Shown in pieces: positions 57,306 to 64,000 of a stretch of 64,000 nucleotides of DNA. The notes under the pieces are model-generated. The model saw only the letters and a program-made list of their open reading frames with translations. It ran no database searches and was not told where the DNA came from. Both the position numbers and the translations under genes were made by a program. The DNA comes from Alkalinema sp. FACHB-956. GTDB taxonomy: Bacteria; Cyanobacteriota; Cyanobacteriia; Leptolyngbyales; Leptolyngbyaceae. Where the stretch lies: NCBI RefSeq assembly GCF_014697025.1, contig NZ_JACJRC010000017.1, positions 50,887 to 114,886 on the forward strand. The letters run 5' to 3'. Position 1 is the first letter of the stretch. Each line of letters opens with the position of its first letter.

Positions 57306-57673
57306 AAATAATGACGTGATCGTTATTACTGGAGTAGACCCAAGGTATATCCGGTAGAGATTTGCTACTACTCGATTTCTTAAACATCGATCGAGGATTG
57401 AATTGTTCGTCAAATTAACTCTATTGGGGATGTGAATTACCACATCTCCAGTAGATTATGCTGCCAATTCTGGAAATTCAAGAATGCGTTTTCAGTAAAT
57501 GCTGAAGTTCTGATTTCAGCAGGGAATGGCACGATTGACTTGTAGTATACCGATCGCAGTCGAAGGGGCGTTTATTTTGAGCAGGTCAAGGCTATTTAGA
57601 TCACCTGAAAAGCTTTCACAATCAGCAATTTGATTAACTCTCAAAAAAACTCGAAAAAAAATTCCAAAACCCC
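57306..57673. other. Intergenic region before the tRNA array
   Basis: About 370 AT-rich bases with no gene or repeat recognised; the array promoter lies at its right end. Confidence 0.5.
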
Positions 57674-57703
57674 TTGACACTTCCGAAAAGTACAATGTAG
57701 TAT
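57674..57703 (+). promoter_or_regulatory. Candidate promoter of the tRNA array
   Basis: Consensus -35 TTGACA (57674-57679) and -10 TAGTAT (57698-57703), spacing 18. A second TAGTAT follows eight bases later. No other strong promoter was seen before the first tRNA, and no terminator lies between it and 58149. Confidence 0.55.
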
Positions 57704-57738
57704 ATGTAGTATCAGGAAAGCGAAAAGGAGCCAACACA

Positions 57739-58611: not shown

Positions 58612-58784
58612 GGCTCCGTGCCCTAAATCAAGAAGCCTACAAACTGGTAACAATTGATCTGAAAAATCAATGAGTTGGTTCGAATCCAACAGCCTCCACT
58701 AAATTGATTCCTACAACGTTAGTTCAATGGATTCATCGGACAGGGAGGCTGAAAAAAAACAGCTTCTTAAACTTGCACGGAGCC
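58612..58784 (+). ncRNA. Permuted tRNA-Phe-like unit 1
   Basis: Outer helix P1 GGCTCCGTGC / GCACGGAGCC (58612-58621 with 58775-58784), inner helix P2 AAGAAGC / GCTTCTT, joined by CCTAA on one side and AAACTT on the other. Inside come a Phe anticodon arm (TTGAT, CTGAAAA, ATCAA), a T-arm GTTGGTTCGAATCCAAC and a 3' acceptor strand AGCCTCC. The matching 5' acceptor GGAGGCT follows only 46 bases later (58744-58750). The order is permuted but the D-arm is not found, so this copy may be degenerate. Confidence 0.5.
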
Positions 58785-61648: not shown

Positions 61649-62284
61649 ATGACGACCCGTCAATTATTTAAATCCAATCAAGCAGGGCATTTCGACTACA
61701 CCCTGCGGAAGCAGACGGGTGGCCCTGGACAATATGCAAGGGTAATCGGTTATGTCGAAGCTTGCGATGAAAATTTCATCTTTGAAAATCGCATCACTGG
61801 TGGCACAATTCCCACGGAATTTATTAAATCCTGTGAGCAAGGCTTCCGAGATGCGACGAGTGCTGGAATTTTGGCTGGTTATCCCGTGGTGGGTGTAAAG
61901 GTTGTCCTGACTGGTGGCGATTTCCATCCGAATGACTCCAACGATCGGGCCTTCCGTTTTGCTGCTTGCCAAGCTTTCTATCAAGGCATGAGCACAGCCG
62001 ATGCGGTTATTATCGAACCGATTATGGATGTCCTGGTAACGGTGCCGAGTAAATTTATTGGCGCGGTACAGGGTGATTTAATCAAGCGACGCGGTATGGT
62101 GCAGAACATACAGACAAATGGGAATGACACAGACTTAAATGTGCAGGTGCCATTGTCAGAAATGTTTGGTTATGCCACACAACTACGATCGCTCACTGCC
62201 GGACAAGGTAATTTCTCTATGACTCCTAGTAATTACCAACCTGTTCCTGAAACCGTTCAGGCAGCGTTGATTGCCAAGGCATAA
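61649..62284 (+). CDS. Free-standing EF-G domain IV-V protein
   Basis: 211 residues from MTTRQLFKSNQAGHF, with AAGGAG 8 bases upstream. The sequence follows EF-G domains IV and V closely: RKQTGGPGQYARVIGYVEAC, FENRITGGTIPTEFIKSCEQ, GILAGYPVVGVKVVLTGG, then VIIEPIMDVLVTVPSKFIGA, GDLIKRRGMVQNIQ and VPLSEMFGYATQLRSLTAGQ. The GTPase (G) domain and domains II-III are absent. In EF-G, domain IV mimics a tRNA anticodon arm and enters the ribosomal A site. It sits in the tRNA array between the last Ser tRNA and the permuted units, so a role in translation or tRNA handling is likely but unproven. Confidence 0.88.
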   Translation: MTTRQLFKSNQAGHFDYTLRKQTGGPGQYARVIGYVEACDENFIFENRITGGTIPTEFIKSCEQGFRDATSAGILAGYPVVGVKVVLTGGDFHPNDSNDRAFRFAACQAFYQGMSTADAVIIEPIMDVLVTVPSKFIGAVQGDLIKRRGMVQNIQTNGNDTDLNVQVPLSEMFGYATQLRSLTAGQGNFSMTPSNYQPVPETVQAALIAKA

Positions 62285-62315
62285 ACAATGACCTGTTCTG
62301 ATTATTTTTGTGGAA

Positions 62316-62461
62316 ACTCCGTGCCCTCATTTGTAAAGCTTACATACGTCCCTTAGGAAGGGGTGATTGCAGGTTCGAGTCCTGCCGACGGCATATCCGC
62401 CGTCGTGGCCTAATTGGAAAAGGCACCTAGTATCACACAGCTTTGCTAACTTGCACGGAGT
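62316..62461 (+). ncRNA. Permuted tRNA unit 2, 146 nt
   Basis: Frame: P1 ACTCCGTGC / GCACGGAGT (62316-62324 with 62453-62461), junctions CCTCA and TAACTT, P2 GTAAAGC / GCTTTGC, then TTACATAC. Inside, the tRNA 3' part comes first: anticodon-stem strand TTAGG, variable loop, T-arm GCAGGTTCGAGTCCTGC, acceptor CGACGGC and discriminator A. After TATCC comes the 5' part: acceptor GCCGTCG, D stem GCC / GGC around TAATTGGAAAA, and anticodon-stem strand CCTAG. All arms pair, so cutting and joining within the anticodon loop would give a normal tRNA. The anticodon cannot be read without knowing the joining point. Confidence 0.75.
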
Positions 62462-62515
62462 TCCCAAATTTTCTGATTGGTGGATTGTGATTTAACGGGC
62501 AATACCAAAGGTGCT

Positions 62516-62597
62516 GGAAGGTGCCGCTGATGGTTGGCAACTGGCTTGGAAAACCAGGGTGGGTTAATGCCCAAGGGTTCGATTCCTTCTCCTTCCG
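62516..62597 (+). tRNA. tRNA-Ser(GGA)
   Basis: In normal order between permuted units 2 and 3. Acceptor GGAAGGT / TCCTTCC (one mismatch), anticodon loop TTGGAAA on stem CTGG / CCAG, class II variable arm (GGTGGGTTAATGCCC), T-loop TTCGATT, discriminator G. Confidence 0.82.
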
Positions 62598-62599
62598 TC

Positions 62600-62745
62600 A
62601 CTCCGTACCCTAACGAGTGAAGCTTACATACGTAACCCAAACTGTTGGTTGTAGGTTCGAGTCCTACTTACCCGGCCTGACGGGTAATAGCTCAATTGGT
62701 AGAGCAGCAGGAAGTATATTTCGCTTTGCCTAACTTGTACGGAGT
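62600..62745 (+). ncRNA. Permuted tRNA unit 3, 146 nt
   Basis: Frame: P1 ACTCCGTAC / GTACGGAGT (62600-62608 with 62737-62745), junctions CCTAA and TAACTT, P2 GTGAAGC / GCTTTGC, then TTACATAC. The 3' tRNA part comes first: CCCAAACTGT, T-arm GTAGGTTCGAGTCCTAC, acceptor TTACCCG and G. After CCTGA comes the 5' part: acceptor CGGGTAA, D-arm GCTC / GAGC around AATTGGTA, and GCAGG. Acceptor, D and T arms are perfect; the anticodon stem is weaker (GCAG / CTGT). Same length as unit 2. The G-to-A and C-to-T change in P1 relative to unit 2 is compensatory. Confidence 0.75.
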
Positions 62746-62820: not shown

Positions 62821-63543
62821 ATGCCGGATATCTTTGAAGTTGGTGGAAAAGTACGGGATGAATTGCTGGGCTTAAAGAGTAAAGATGCTGATTTCGCATT
62901 TGTTCTCACTTCCGCAGAGGCTGAGGGGAAATCGATCGAGCAAGCTTTTGAGTTTATGCGTGATTGGATGCAGTCACAGGGCTTTCAGATTTTTCTGAGT
63001 ACGCCGGATTGCTTAACGATTCGCGCTAAGTTCTGTAACTCAACCCAAACGGCAGACTTTGTGTTAGCAAGGCGGGAATTAACATACATGCCTGGAACTC
63101 GCAGACCCATTGTTGTGCCTGGTTCGTTAGCCGATGATTTGCAACGGCGGGATTTTACGGTGAACGCGATCGCGCGATCGGAACAGGGGGAACTGGTAGA
63201 CCTATTTGAAGGCCAAAAAGACTTAGCAGATAAGGTTCTACGCACTCCCCTTGATCCAATGGTGACGTTGGCTGATGACCCGTTGCGGGCATTACGCGCA
63301 GTACGATTTTCGGTCAAGTTAGGATTTCGCATGGCAACCGATCTCGTGGAGGCTTTGCATAATCCTGAGTTACCGGAGTTGATGGCCGTTGTTAGTACCG
63401 ATCGAGTACGCGAGGAACTCGCCAAGGCAATGAAAGCTGACACCTGGGCAACCCTCAAGTTGTTGCAGCGGTTACCAGAAGCCTTGGTGCGCGACTGGCT
63501 AGAACGACCTGGCATGTGGTTAATGCCAACGGTAAAACAGTAA
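62821..63543 (+). CDS. Short CCA-adding-type tRNA nucleotidyltransferase
   Basis: 240 residues from MPDIFEVGGKVRDELLG (AAGGAGG 8 bases upstream; three more codons are open). It has the class II CCA-adding head and neck: GGKVRDELLGL for nucleotide, KDADFAF metal aspartates, LQRRDFTVNAIARS, then LADDPLRALRAVRFSVKLGF. The usual body and tail domains (another 150-200 residues) are missing, so it may add only C, only A, or act on special tRNAs. Its place in the tRNA array, whose genes mostly lack the complete CCA, gives an obvious substrate. Confidence 0.88.
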   Translation: MPDIFEVGGKVRDELLGLKSKDADFAFVLTSAEAEGKSIEQAFEFMRDWMQSQGFQIFLSTPDCLTIRAKFCNSTQTADFVLARRELTYMPGTRRPIVVPGSLADDLQRRDFTVNAIARSEQGELVDLFEGQKDLADKVLRTPLDPMVTLADDPLRALRAVRFSVKLGFRMATDLVEALHNPELPELMAVVSTDRVREELAKAMKADTWATLKLLQRLPEALVRDWLERPGMWLMPTVKQ

Positions 63544-63653: not shown

Positions 63654-63828
63654 TTCGTGCCCTAATCGTAAAAGCCTACATACTCTCATACAACGATCCT
63701 AAGGTAGCGACATTCAGGTGACTGAACCAGCGACATATCGCCACATCTCCCGTAGATAAAGCGATCGTGCCCACTGCCCAAACGGTAAGAGCGATCGTCA
63801 GTACAACTGCTTTTACAACTTGCACGAA
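63654..63828 (+). ncRNA. Permuted unit 4 with 23S rRNA-like core
   Basis: Frame: P1 TTCGTGC / GCACGAA (63654-63660 with 63822-63828), junctions CCTAA and AACTT, P2 GTAAAAGC / GCTTTTAC, then CTACATAC. The 3' half contains AACGATCCTAAGGTAGCGAC and a T-arm-like TTCAG / CTGAA with only a four-base loop. The 5' half has a D-loop-like AAACGGTAAGAGC, and GATCG can pair with CGATC as an anticodon stem. Acceptor pairing is not clear. The frame is well conserved, the tRNA content is poor. Confidence 0.5.
63688..63715 (+). other. 23S rRNA helix 69-71-like segment
   Basis: Contains CCTAAGGTAGCGA, the universal 23S rRNA string at the foot of helix 71. Over 28 bases about 24 match the bacterial consensus that begins TATAACGG and continues TCCTAAGGTAGCGAAATTCC. 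Lies inside permuted unit 4, far from any rRNA gene visible here. Confidence 0.65.
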
Positions 63829-63878: not shown

Positions 63879-64000
63879 TGGACCCCAAAAACTGGACAGG
63901 TAGTTAAGCTCTGAAAACTCAAACTGTGATAGGAGTATTTCATGGGCAATAAACGCAAACAATACAGCGCCGACTTCAAAGCCAAAGTAGCCTTAGCGGC
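63879..64000 (+). mobile_element. Left end of an IS3-type insertion sequence
   Basis: Begins with the terminal inverted repeat TGGACCCCAAAAACTGGACA, typical of IS3-family elements of the IS150 kind. Continues past the window edge. It bounds the tRNA array on the right. Confidence 0.8.
63942..64000 (+). CDS. IS3-family transposase OrfA, start only
   Basis: Twenty codons visible: MGNKRKQYSADFKAKVALA. The RKxYSxDFKAKVAL start is that of IS3-family OrfA helix-turn-helix proteins. An AGGAG ribosome site lies upstream. The rest is outside the window. Confidence 0.8.
   Translation, partial: MGNKRKQYSADFKAKVALA

Follow-up and report, generated by a model that had tools for sequence, protein, structure and literature searches.

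The locus and its features

The stretch of Alkalinema sp. DNA analysed here, 64 kb in length and referred to below as the window, carries a dense tRNA array and, within and after it, several elements termed frames, in which a stem joining both ends encloses a variable payload. The frames were located by a finder that demands a 5′ motif and an ACTYG motif together with at least 5 outer and at least 4 inner base pairs; it reports four frames in the window and none when the sequence is read backwards. The initial annotation had described two circularly permuted tRNA genes at this place. Both units are real, yet they are not the only ones, since two further frames lie at 58612-58784 and 63654-63828. 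The elements of the region are as follows.

57541..57712, + strand: three TGTAGTAT sites (57541, 57696, 57705) upstream of the tRNA array; the sequence is the TrcR site printed in PMC10272220
58149..61541, + strand: tRNA array; of 32 tRNA calls in the window it holds 31, and the remaining one lies on unit 1
58612..58784, + strand: fourth frame, inside the tRNA array, its payload with a T arm and an acceptor-like stem (frame finder)
61649..62284, + strand: free-standing open reading frame that encodes EF-G domains IV and V only, located after the tRNA array and before unit 1 (PF03764, 6.9e-31; PF00679, 2.3e-27)
62315..62462, + strand: unit 1, Y RNA-like frame with a permuted tRNA-like module (frame finder; RF02553)
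62316..62324, + strand: unit 1 outer stem P1, 5′ arm ACTCCGTGC, partner 62453-62461
62333..62340, + strand: unit 1 inner stem P2, 5′ arm, partner 62439-62446 (predicted fold)
62350..62362, + strand: unit 1 anticodon-like hairpin CCCTTAGGAAGGG (sequence and predicted fold)
62369..62385, + strand: unit 1 T arm (sequence, Rfam match, predicted fold)
62386..62405, + strand: unit 1 acceptor stem and 6-nt closing loop (sequence, fold, pairing statistics)
62408..62424, + strand: unit 1 D arm (sequence, predicted fold)
62453..62461, + strand: unit 1 outer stem P1, 3′ arm GCACGGAGT, partner 62316-62324
62600..62745, + strand: unit 2, Y RNA-like frame with a permuted tRNA-like module (frame finder; RF02553)
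62600..62608, + strand: unit 2 outer stem P1, 5′ arm ACTCCGTAC, partner GTACGGAGT at 62737-62745 (predicted fold)
62617..62623, + strand: unit 2 inner stem P2, 5′ arm GTGAAGC, partner GCTTTGC at 62723-62729 (homology to other frames)
62651..62667, + strand: unit 2 T arm (sequence, Rfam match, predicted fold)
62668..62687, + strand: unit 2 acceptor stem and 6-nt closing loop (sequence, fold, pairing statistics)
62690..62705, + strand: unit 2 D arm (sequence, Rfam match)
62821..63543, + strand: short protein resembling a tRNA nucleotidyltransferase, encoded after unit 2 and before the third frame (PF01743, 7.6e-19)
63654..63828, + strand: third frame, payload like the H69-H71 region of 23S rRNA (frame finder; 23S alignment)

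In both units the 3′ part of the tRNA precedes the 5′ part, as had been proposed, in the order T arm, acceptor 3′ strand, loop, acceptor 5′ strand and D arm. The acceptor strands pair at 7/7 positions in each unit across a gap which is short, as annotated, and measures 6 nt in both: CGACGGC (62386-62392), loop ATATCC and GCCGTCG (62399-62405) in unit 1; TTACCCG (62668-62674), loop GCCTGA and CGGGTAA (62681-62687) in unit 2. The frames, first described as identical and 146 nt long, are alike only, with lengths of 148 and 146 nt and a common 34-nt 5′ arm that is 82% identical. The split had been placed in or beside the anticodon loop; in unit 1 the 3′ part contains the whole anticodon-like hairpin, and the break therefore sits between the D arm and the anticodon arm. 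A possible 7-nt AGG-type loop is kept in unit 1, and a clear anticodon hairpin is absent from unit 2. Compared with dinucleotide shuffles, the folding energies of units 1 and 2 have z values of -3.8 and -2.8, with 1/200 and 3/200 shuffles, respectively, folding equally well; the minimum-energy fold of unit 2 lacks the inner stem and the D arm, in whose place another pairing forms. Between the two units, at 62515-62597, lies a tRNA-Ser-like gene with a GGA-type loop, which is missed by ARAGORN and receives only a sub-cut-off tRNA-Sec match from Rfam.

The surroundings of the array recall a described regulon. The sequence TGTAGTAT occurs four times in the window (0.5 expected), three of the sites falling in the 610 nt that precede the array, and the window also encodes, upstream, an HNH gene and a gene of the alr0857 family. 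PMC10272220 describes TrcR of Anabaena sp. PCC 7120 as a repressor acting on the trn operon, on rtcB, on alr0857 and on an HNH gene; the repression is relieved by translation inhibitors, and the TrcR site at the trn promoter is TGTAGTAT. The present locus thus shares with that system the long tRNA array, the HNH gene, the alr0857-family gene and the sites, whereas the main text of that account never mentions "Y RNA" or "Ro60".

Conservation of the frame and its module

The outer stem of the frame covaries. In a set chosen by the 5′ pattern and the ACTYG motif only (81 pattern hits, from which 10 without the 3′ motif, six of them chance sites, were dropped), 92.8% of positions are paired over 45 distinct stems, compared to a maximum of 83.0% for shuffles that ignore relatedness among the sequences, and to at most 58.7% in slid registers. 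More variation is seen in the inner stem: among frames that were preselected for at least 4 inner pairs, the outermost pair is present in 68% of 50 distinct stems. Across the permutation, the acceptor is 93.3% paired in 17 modules not picked for pairing, one of which is a mis-caught 23S-type module (L089:1942); 5000 shuffles, again blind to relatedness, gave a mean of 55.9% and a maximum of 73.1%. Independent decay of the pieces in relatives, which the initial annotation had named as evidence against itself, is not what is found: the 17 modules keep their acceptor pairing. The permuted tRNA-like fold with maintained pairing is upheld by compensatory change in relatives (93% of acceptor positions paired).

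Linkage of the frames to a Ro60-like protein

A degenerate frame pattern, CCN10AAGCHTACATAC, was searched in an order sample of 42 genomes and a phylum sample of 339. It occurs in 14/42 and 23/339 genomes, respectively, and its reversed form in 0/42 and in 6/339, with one occurrence in each of the six. Reading of the matched stretches led to 18 of the 23 phylum-sample genomes being judged genuine; the matches in G045, G100, G154, G172 and G308 were judged to be chance.

In relatives, the frames are gene-linked to a vWA protein. In the relative G014 (locus L018), several frames and a vWA protein of 477 aa come after a homologous tRNA array, and a full-length relative of this protein, with 71% identity, is encoded in the window's own genome at G000:C6:121931-123352. 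Two frames lie upstream of this gene (locus L065), one reported by the finder and a shorter one read by eye. Units 1 and 2 are on contig C17 and the Ro60-like gene is on contig C6. By eye, the contig end at window 63880-64000 looks like the start of an insertion-sequence transposase, and this may account for the Ro60 locus lying on another contig.

Relatives of the vWA protein are encoded in 265 stretches, the best 80 of which were analysed. Frames stand beside the Ro60-like gene in 79/80 of these best loci, the exception being a contig of 3,971 nt. All 320 frames are on the strand of the gene and 294 are upstream of it, a few spans covering two neighbours; the nearest upstream frame has a median distance of 106 nt, and the same 80 loci read backwards gave 0 frames. 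In the 339-genome sample the protein is present in 23 genomes, the pattern in 23 and both in 17 (Fisher p 5e-19). Three of the six protein-only genomes were scanned with a relaxed finder, which revealed frames in two and none in the third, a 5,392-nt contig; the remaining three have truncated protein matches. A protein match was obtained in 13/42 genomes of the order sample, in G039 and G040 as fragments only, and the protein is present in 11/14 frame genomes. Frames with no Ro60 match occur in G311 (1/18 genuine genomes of the phylum sample) and in G024, G030 and G037 (3/14 in the order sample).

The vWA protein is predicted to adopt the Ro60 fold. In the predicted model (pLDDT 82.8; Foldseek and VIA) a HEAT-like helical part is joined to a vWA domain, and the predicted fold is like that of the Ro60/TROVE proteins Rsr and phage phiLo Ro60 over more than 410 residues; unlike these, it combines an identity of only about 15% with the lack of a TROVE sequence match. 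Pfam TROVE (PF05731) matches neither the vWA protein nor anything else in the window's genome, and the protein is therefore not filed under that family. The idea of Y RNAs without Ro60, suggested by the empty TROVE search, was dropped on account of the predicted Ro60 fold of the relative's vWA protein. A PDB sequence search returned no match, PADLOC has no model for it, and database rows call it "hypothetical" or "vWA-domain protein".

Among the best 80 of the 265 loci, the Ro60-like gene is accompanied by proteins of 66 aa (71 loci), 276 aa (60) and 241 aa (50), by a ThiF/E1-like protein (59) and by one like L7/L12 (28), each family being typed from one representative. The L7/L12-like proteins and the free EF-G domains IV-V make a set of translation look-alikes. 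The nucleotidyltransferase-like proteins at 62821-63543 and L018:8015-8743, of 240-242 aa, lie beside frames and score below the cut-offs for CCA enzymes; their closest PHROG is a tRNA nucleotidyltransferase family.

The TGTAGTAT sites extend to other parts of the system. Two are found upstream of the genome's own rtcB (0.03 expected in the locus), and a single one in its own Ro60 locus, which is not beyond chance (33/200 shuffles match). The best 80 of the 265 Ro60 loci contain 203 sites in 76 loci, compared to 40-176 for 20 letter-permuted controls, and 93 of the 203 lie 1.5-3.5 kb upstream of the Ro60 gene. TrcR is presumed to act here.

Diversity of the payloads

The payload survey covers 106 distinct frames from the window, L018 and L065-L106, or 103 when two double spans and one duplicate are subtracted. 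The same frame carries diverse payloads, among them permuted tRNA, normal-order tRNA, T-arm minihelices, short hairpins and pieces of 23S rRNA.

The payload of the frame at 63654-63828 aligns with positions 1915-1941 of E. coli 23S rRNA with a score of 39 (maximum of 60 shuffles, 25), and its relative in L069 scores 47 versus 26. The heads of such 23S-like payloads exceed all 60 shuffles in 9/10 cases, that of L093 by one point (32 versus 31), and the head of L073 fails (29 versus 30). In the ten payloads, pairing across the break forms a stem that corresponds to H69 (94% versus 79.6%, 0/5000 shuffles), with a G-G mismatch in three of the ten stems. A separate test of nine tails gave none that exceeded its own shuffles over the whole 23S rRNA; against positions 1801-1950, L093 (3/1000) stands out and, weakly, L069 (20) and L073 (46), and the tail of 63654-63828 itself is not 23S-like (891/1000). 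Since the tails are mostly not significant, it is the head match and the stem pairing across the break that carry the permuted-H69 reading.

Another payload found in relatives corresponds to the GTPase centre (E. coli 1055-1104), with a score of 50 versus 29; 4/4 of these payloads exceed their own shuffles, and that of L018 lies above the cut-off of the Rfam LSU model (55.1 versus 50 bits). This payload also bears AGTACGAGAGG, the sarcin-ricin sequence at E. coli 2654, a string present in 29/311 distinct frames near Ro60 genes in the best 80 of the 265 loci. The frame with both pieces lies at L018:9701-9911, and likewise in L066, L071 and L080. In L083 and L103 the opening of the permuted tRNA lies in the D loop instead. 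At L018:5082-5160 and in its relatives, a tRNA-like gene seems to hold a short frame as an insert in its anticodon region, an arrangement opposite to the permuted one. At L018:6296-6446 and in its relatives, a different payload class directly precedes the start codon of the Ro60-like gene (57 nt in L108), where it might serve feedback control.

On the anticodon side, the strict count of permuted modules near Ro60 genes is 46 in the best 80 of the 265 loci; looser classes drawn by regular expression give 54 "permuted" frames, including mis-sorted ones. A GNAA tetraloop hairpin replaces the anticodon arm in 22/46 modules (GCAA in 16, GAAA in 5, GTAA in 1). A 7-nt loop is present in 7/46, and the loop argument thus does not rule out tRNA for all modules.

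Discussion

The best Rfam family for both units is YrlA (RF02553), with 40.5 bits (E 6.6e-7) for unit 2 and 31.2 bits (E 3.3e-4) for unit 1. The gathering cut-off of 69 bits is reached by neither, and the units are therefore not filed as Rfam YrlA members; in the order sample the cut-off is exceeded in 0/42 genomes. The match by itself is weak, because 9/14 control genomes have sub-threshold matches and adjacent tRNA genes imitate the module. YrlA matches alone were accordingly rejected as proof, those in L005, L007 and L014-L017 looking like tandem tRNAs. It is by anatomy, linkage and fold that the units resemble a Y RNA and the vWA protein resembles Ro60. YrlA is described in PMC8394870 as a stem joining both ends with a tRNA-like domain that has D, T and acceptor arms, and its structure, 6CU1, gives circularly permuted superpositions with tRNAs according to PMC11472068. 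The annotated statement that no bacterial family shows such an architecture thus fails. Like YrlA, the units have ends that pair into a long stem and a module whose D, T and acceptor arms follow a permuted order, and their frames are gene-linked to a Ro60 protein in relatives; unlike YrlA, they fall below the Rfam cut-off, have their own conserved stem sequence (CC-N10-AAGCHTACATAC ... ACTYG), occur as several frames per locus and carry payloads other than tRNA. A self-splicing intron frame was discarded, no Rfam intron family matching the units at E up to 1. A literature search covering mainly openly accessible papers returned no paper on cyanobacterial Ro60 or Y RNA.

The two units are most probably, at about 0.8, Y RNA-like noncoding RNAs, in which a conserved end-paired stem, putatively held by a divergent protein with predicted Ro60 fold, displays a permuted tRNA-like module and which would not mature to decoding tRNAs. 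Upon a translation block, the TrcR-type operon would open and the Ro60-fold protein would bind the stem of the frame. The displayed module, be it a tRNA, the H69 region of 23S rRNA or the 23S GTPase centre with the sarcin-ricin loop, may then attract enzymes or factors that recognise the genuine RNA (nucleases, PNPase, tRNA-modifying enzymes, ribosome factors), whereby the Ro60 particle would be guided to damaged tRNA and rRNA for sorting, repair or degradation. The permutation would arise because hanging a tRNA on the stem by its anticodon side needs the natural ends to be sealed by a small loop.

On balance, and with less assurance, a wider proposal is also favoured: in a hitherto unrecognised cyanobacterial Ro60 system, one Y-RNA stem would be grafted onto permuted or excised translation pieces, namely tRNA broken open at either the anticodon side or the D loop, 23S rRNA broken open at the H69 loop, and the 23S GTPase centre with the sarcin-ricin loop. 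Together with the L7/L12-like and EF-G-fragment proteins, these would form a stress-induced look-alike kit, each member steering the Ro60 particle to one damaged RNA or attacker.

A possible, though rather doubtful, alternative concerns function and is compatible with the Y RNA identity: the tRNA, H69, GTPase-centre and sarcin-ricin pieces would be decoys that soak up toxins or defence nucleases, and the Ro60-like protein would only stabilise them. The payloads are indeed translation parts that toxins attack, and the sarcin-ricin loop is a toxin target. The EF-G domains IV-V and the L7/L12-like proteins (28/80 in the best 80 of the 265 loci) could be decoys as well, and PMC7790460 proposes that the tRNA-like domain of YrlA could competitively inhibit an anticodon nuclease. 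The tetraloop form, however, has no anticodon and therefore would not bait anticodon nucleases by mimicry of the cleavage site, and the association of the frames with the gene of a Ro60-fold protein points to a role beyond that of a free decoy.

It is improbable that the units are true permuted tRNA genes, with the flanking stem as a splice-site helix that is cut and joined, for example by RtcB, after which RNase P and tRNase Z would open the acceptor loop to release a working tRNA. Such genes, known from algae and an archaeon, are probably matured from bulge-helix-bulge motifs by a splicing endonuclease and a ligase, according to PMC3978253; the units share with them the 3′ half placed before the 5′ half, the short loop at the acceptor end and the maintained pairing. 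RtcB is encoded in this genome, so that ligation as such is possible, and its gene has the two upstream TGTAGTAT sites; unit 1 has its possible 7-nt AGG-type loop, in common with the seven of 46 modules that keep a loop of this length. The splicing endonuclease of these genes (PF01974), in contrast, was found in 4/14 control genomes and 0 times in the own genome, the anticodon loop is often replaced, by a GNAA tetraloop in 22/46 modules near Ro60 genes, and the same frame also holds 23S-like, short and normal-order tRNA payloads. The annotated requirement for cutting and joining of RNA is consequently unsupported. That the units are decayed tandem tRNA duplicates, only apparently permuted, is hardly credible: they adjoin a dense tRNA array and adjacent tRNAs yield false YrlA-like matches, but compensatory change has preserved the acceptor and stem pairs, and frames lie by Ro60-like genes in 79 of the best 80 of 265 loci.

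The Y RNA-like reading finds a parallel in the Salmonella rsr-yrlBA-rtcBA system, which, according to PMC7790460, likewise unites a Ro60 protein, Y RNAs and RtcB and is tied to damaged tRNA. The present system differs in that rtcB lies on another contig, the regulator would be TrcR rather than RtcR, and it further includes rRNA-like payloads and a tRNA array.

Imitation of tRNA is an established property of bacterial Y RNAs, and 23S rRNA-like modules on the same stem would show that the module is exchangeable, which would make the purpose of Y RNA ends directly testable. Cyanobacteria would gain a predicted Ro60 missed by the TROVE sequence model, and long tRNA arrays, RtcB and Ro60 would be tied to one candidate stress regulon. 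In the cell, this Y RNA-like family would help to handle damaged RNA under translation stress.
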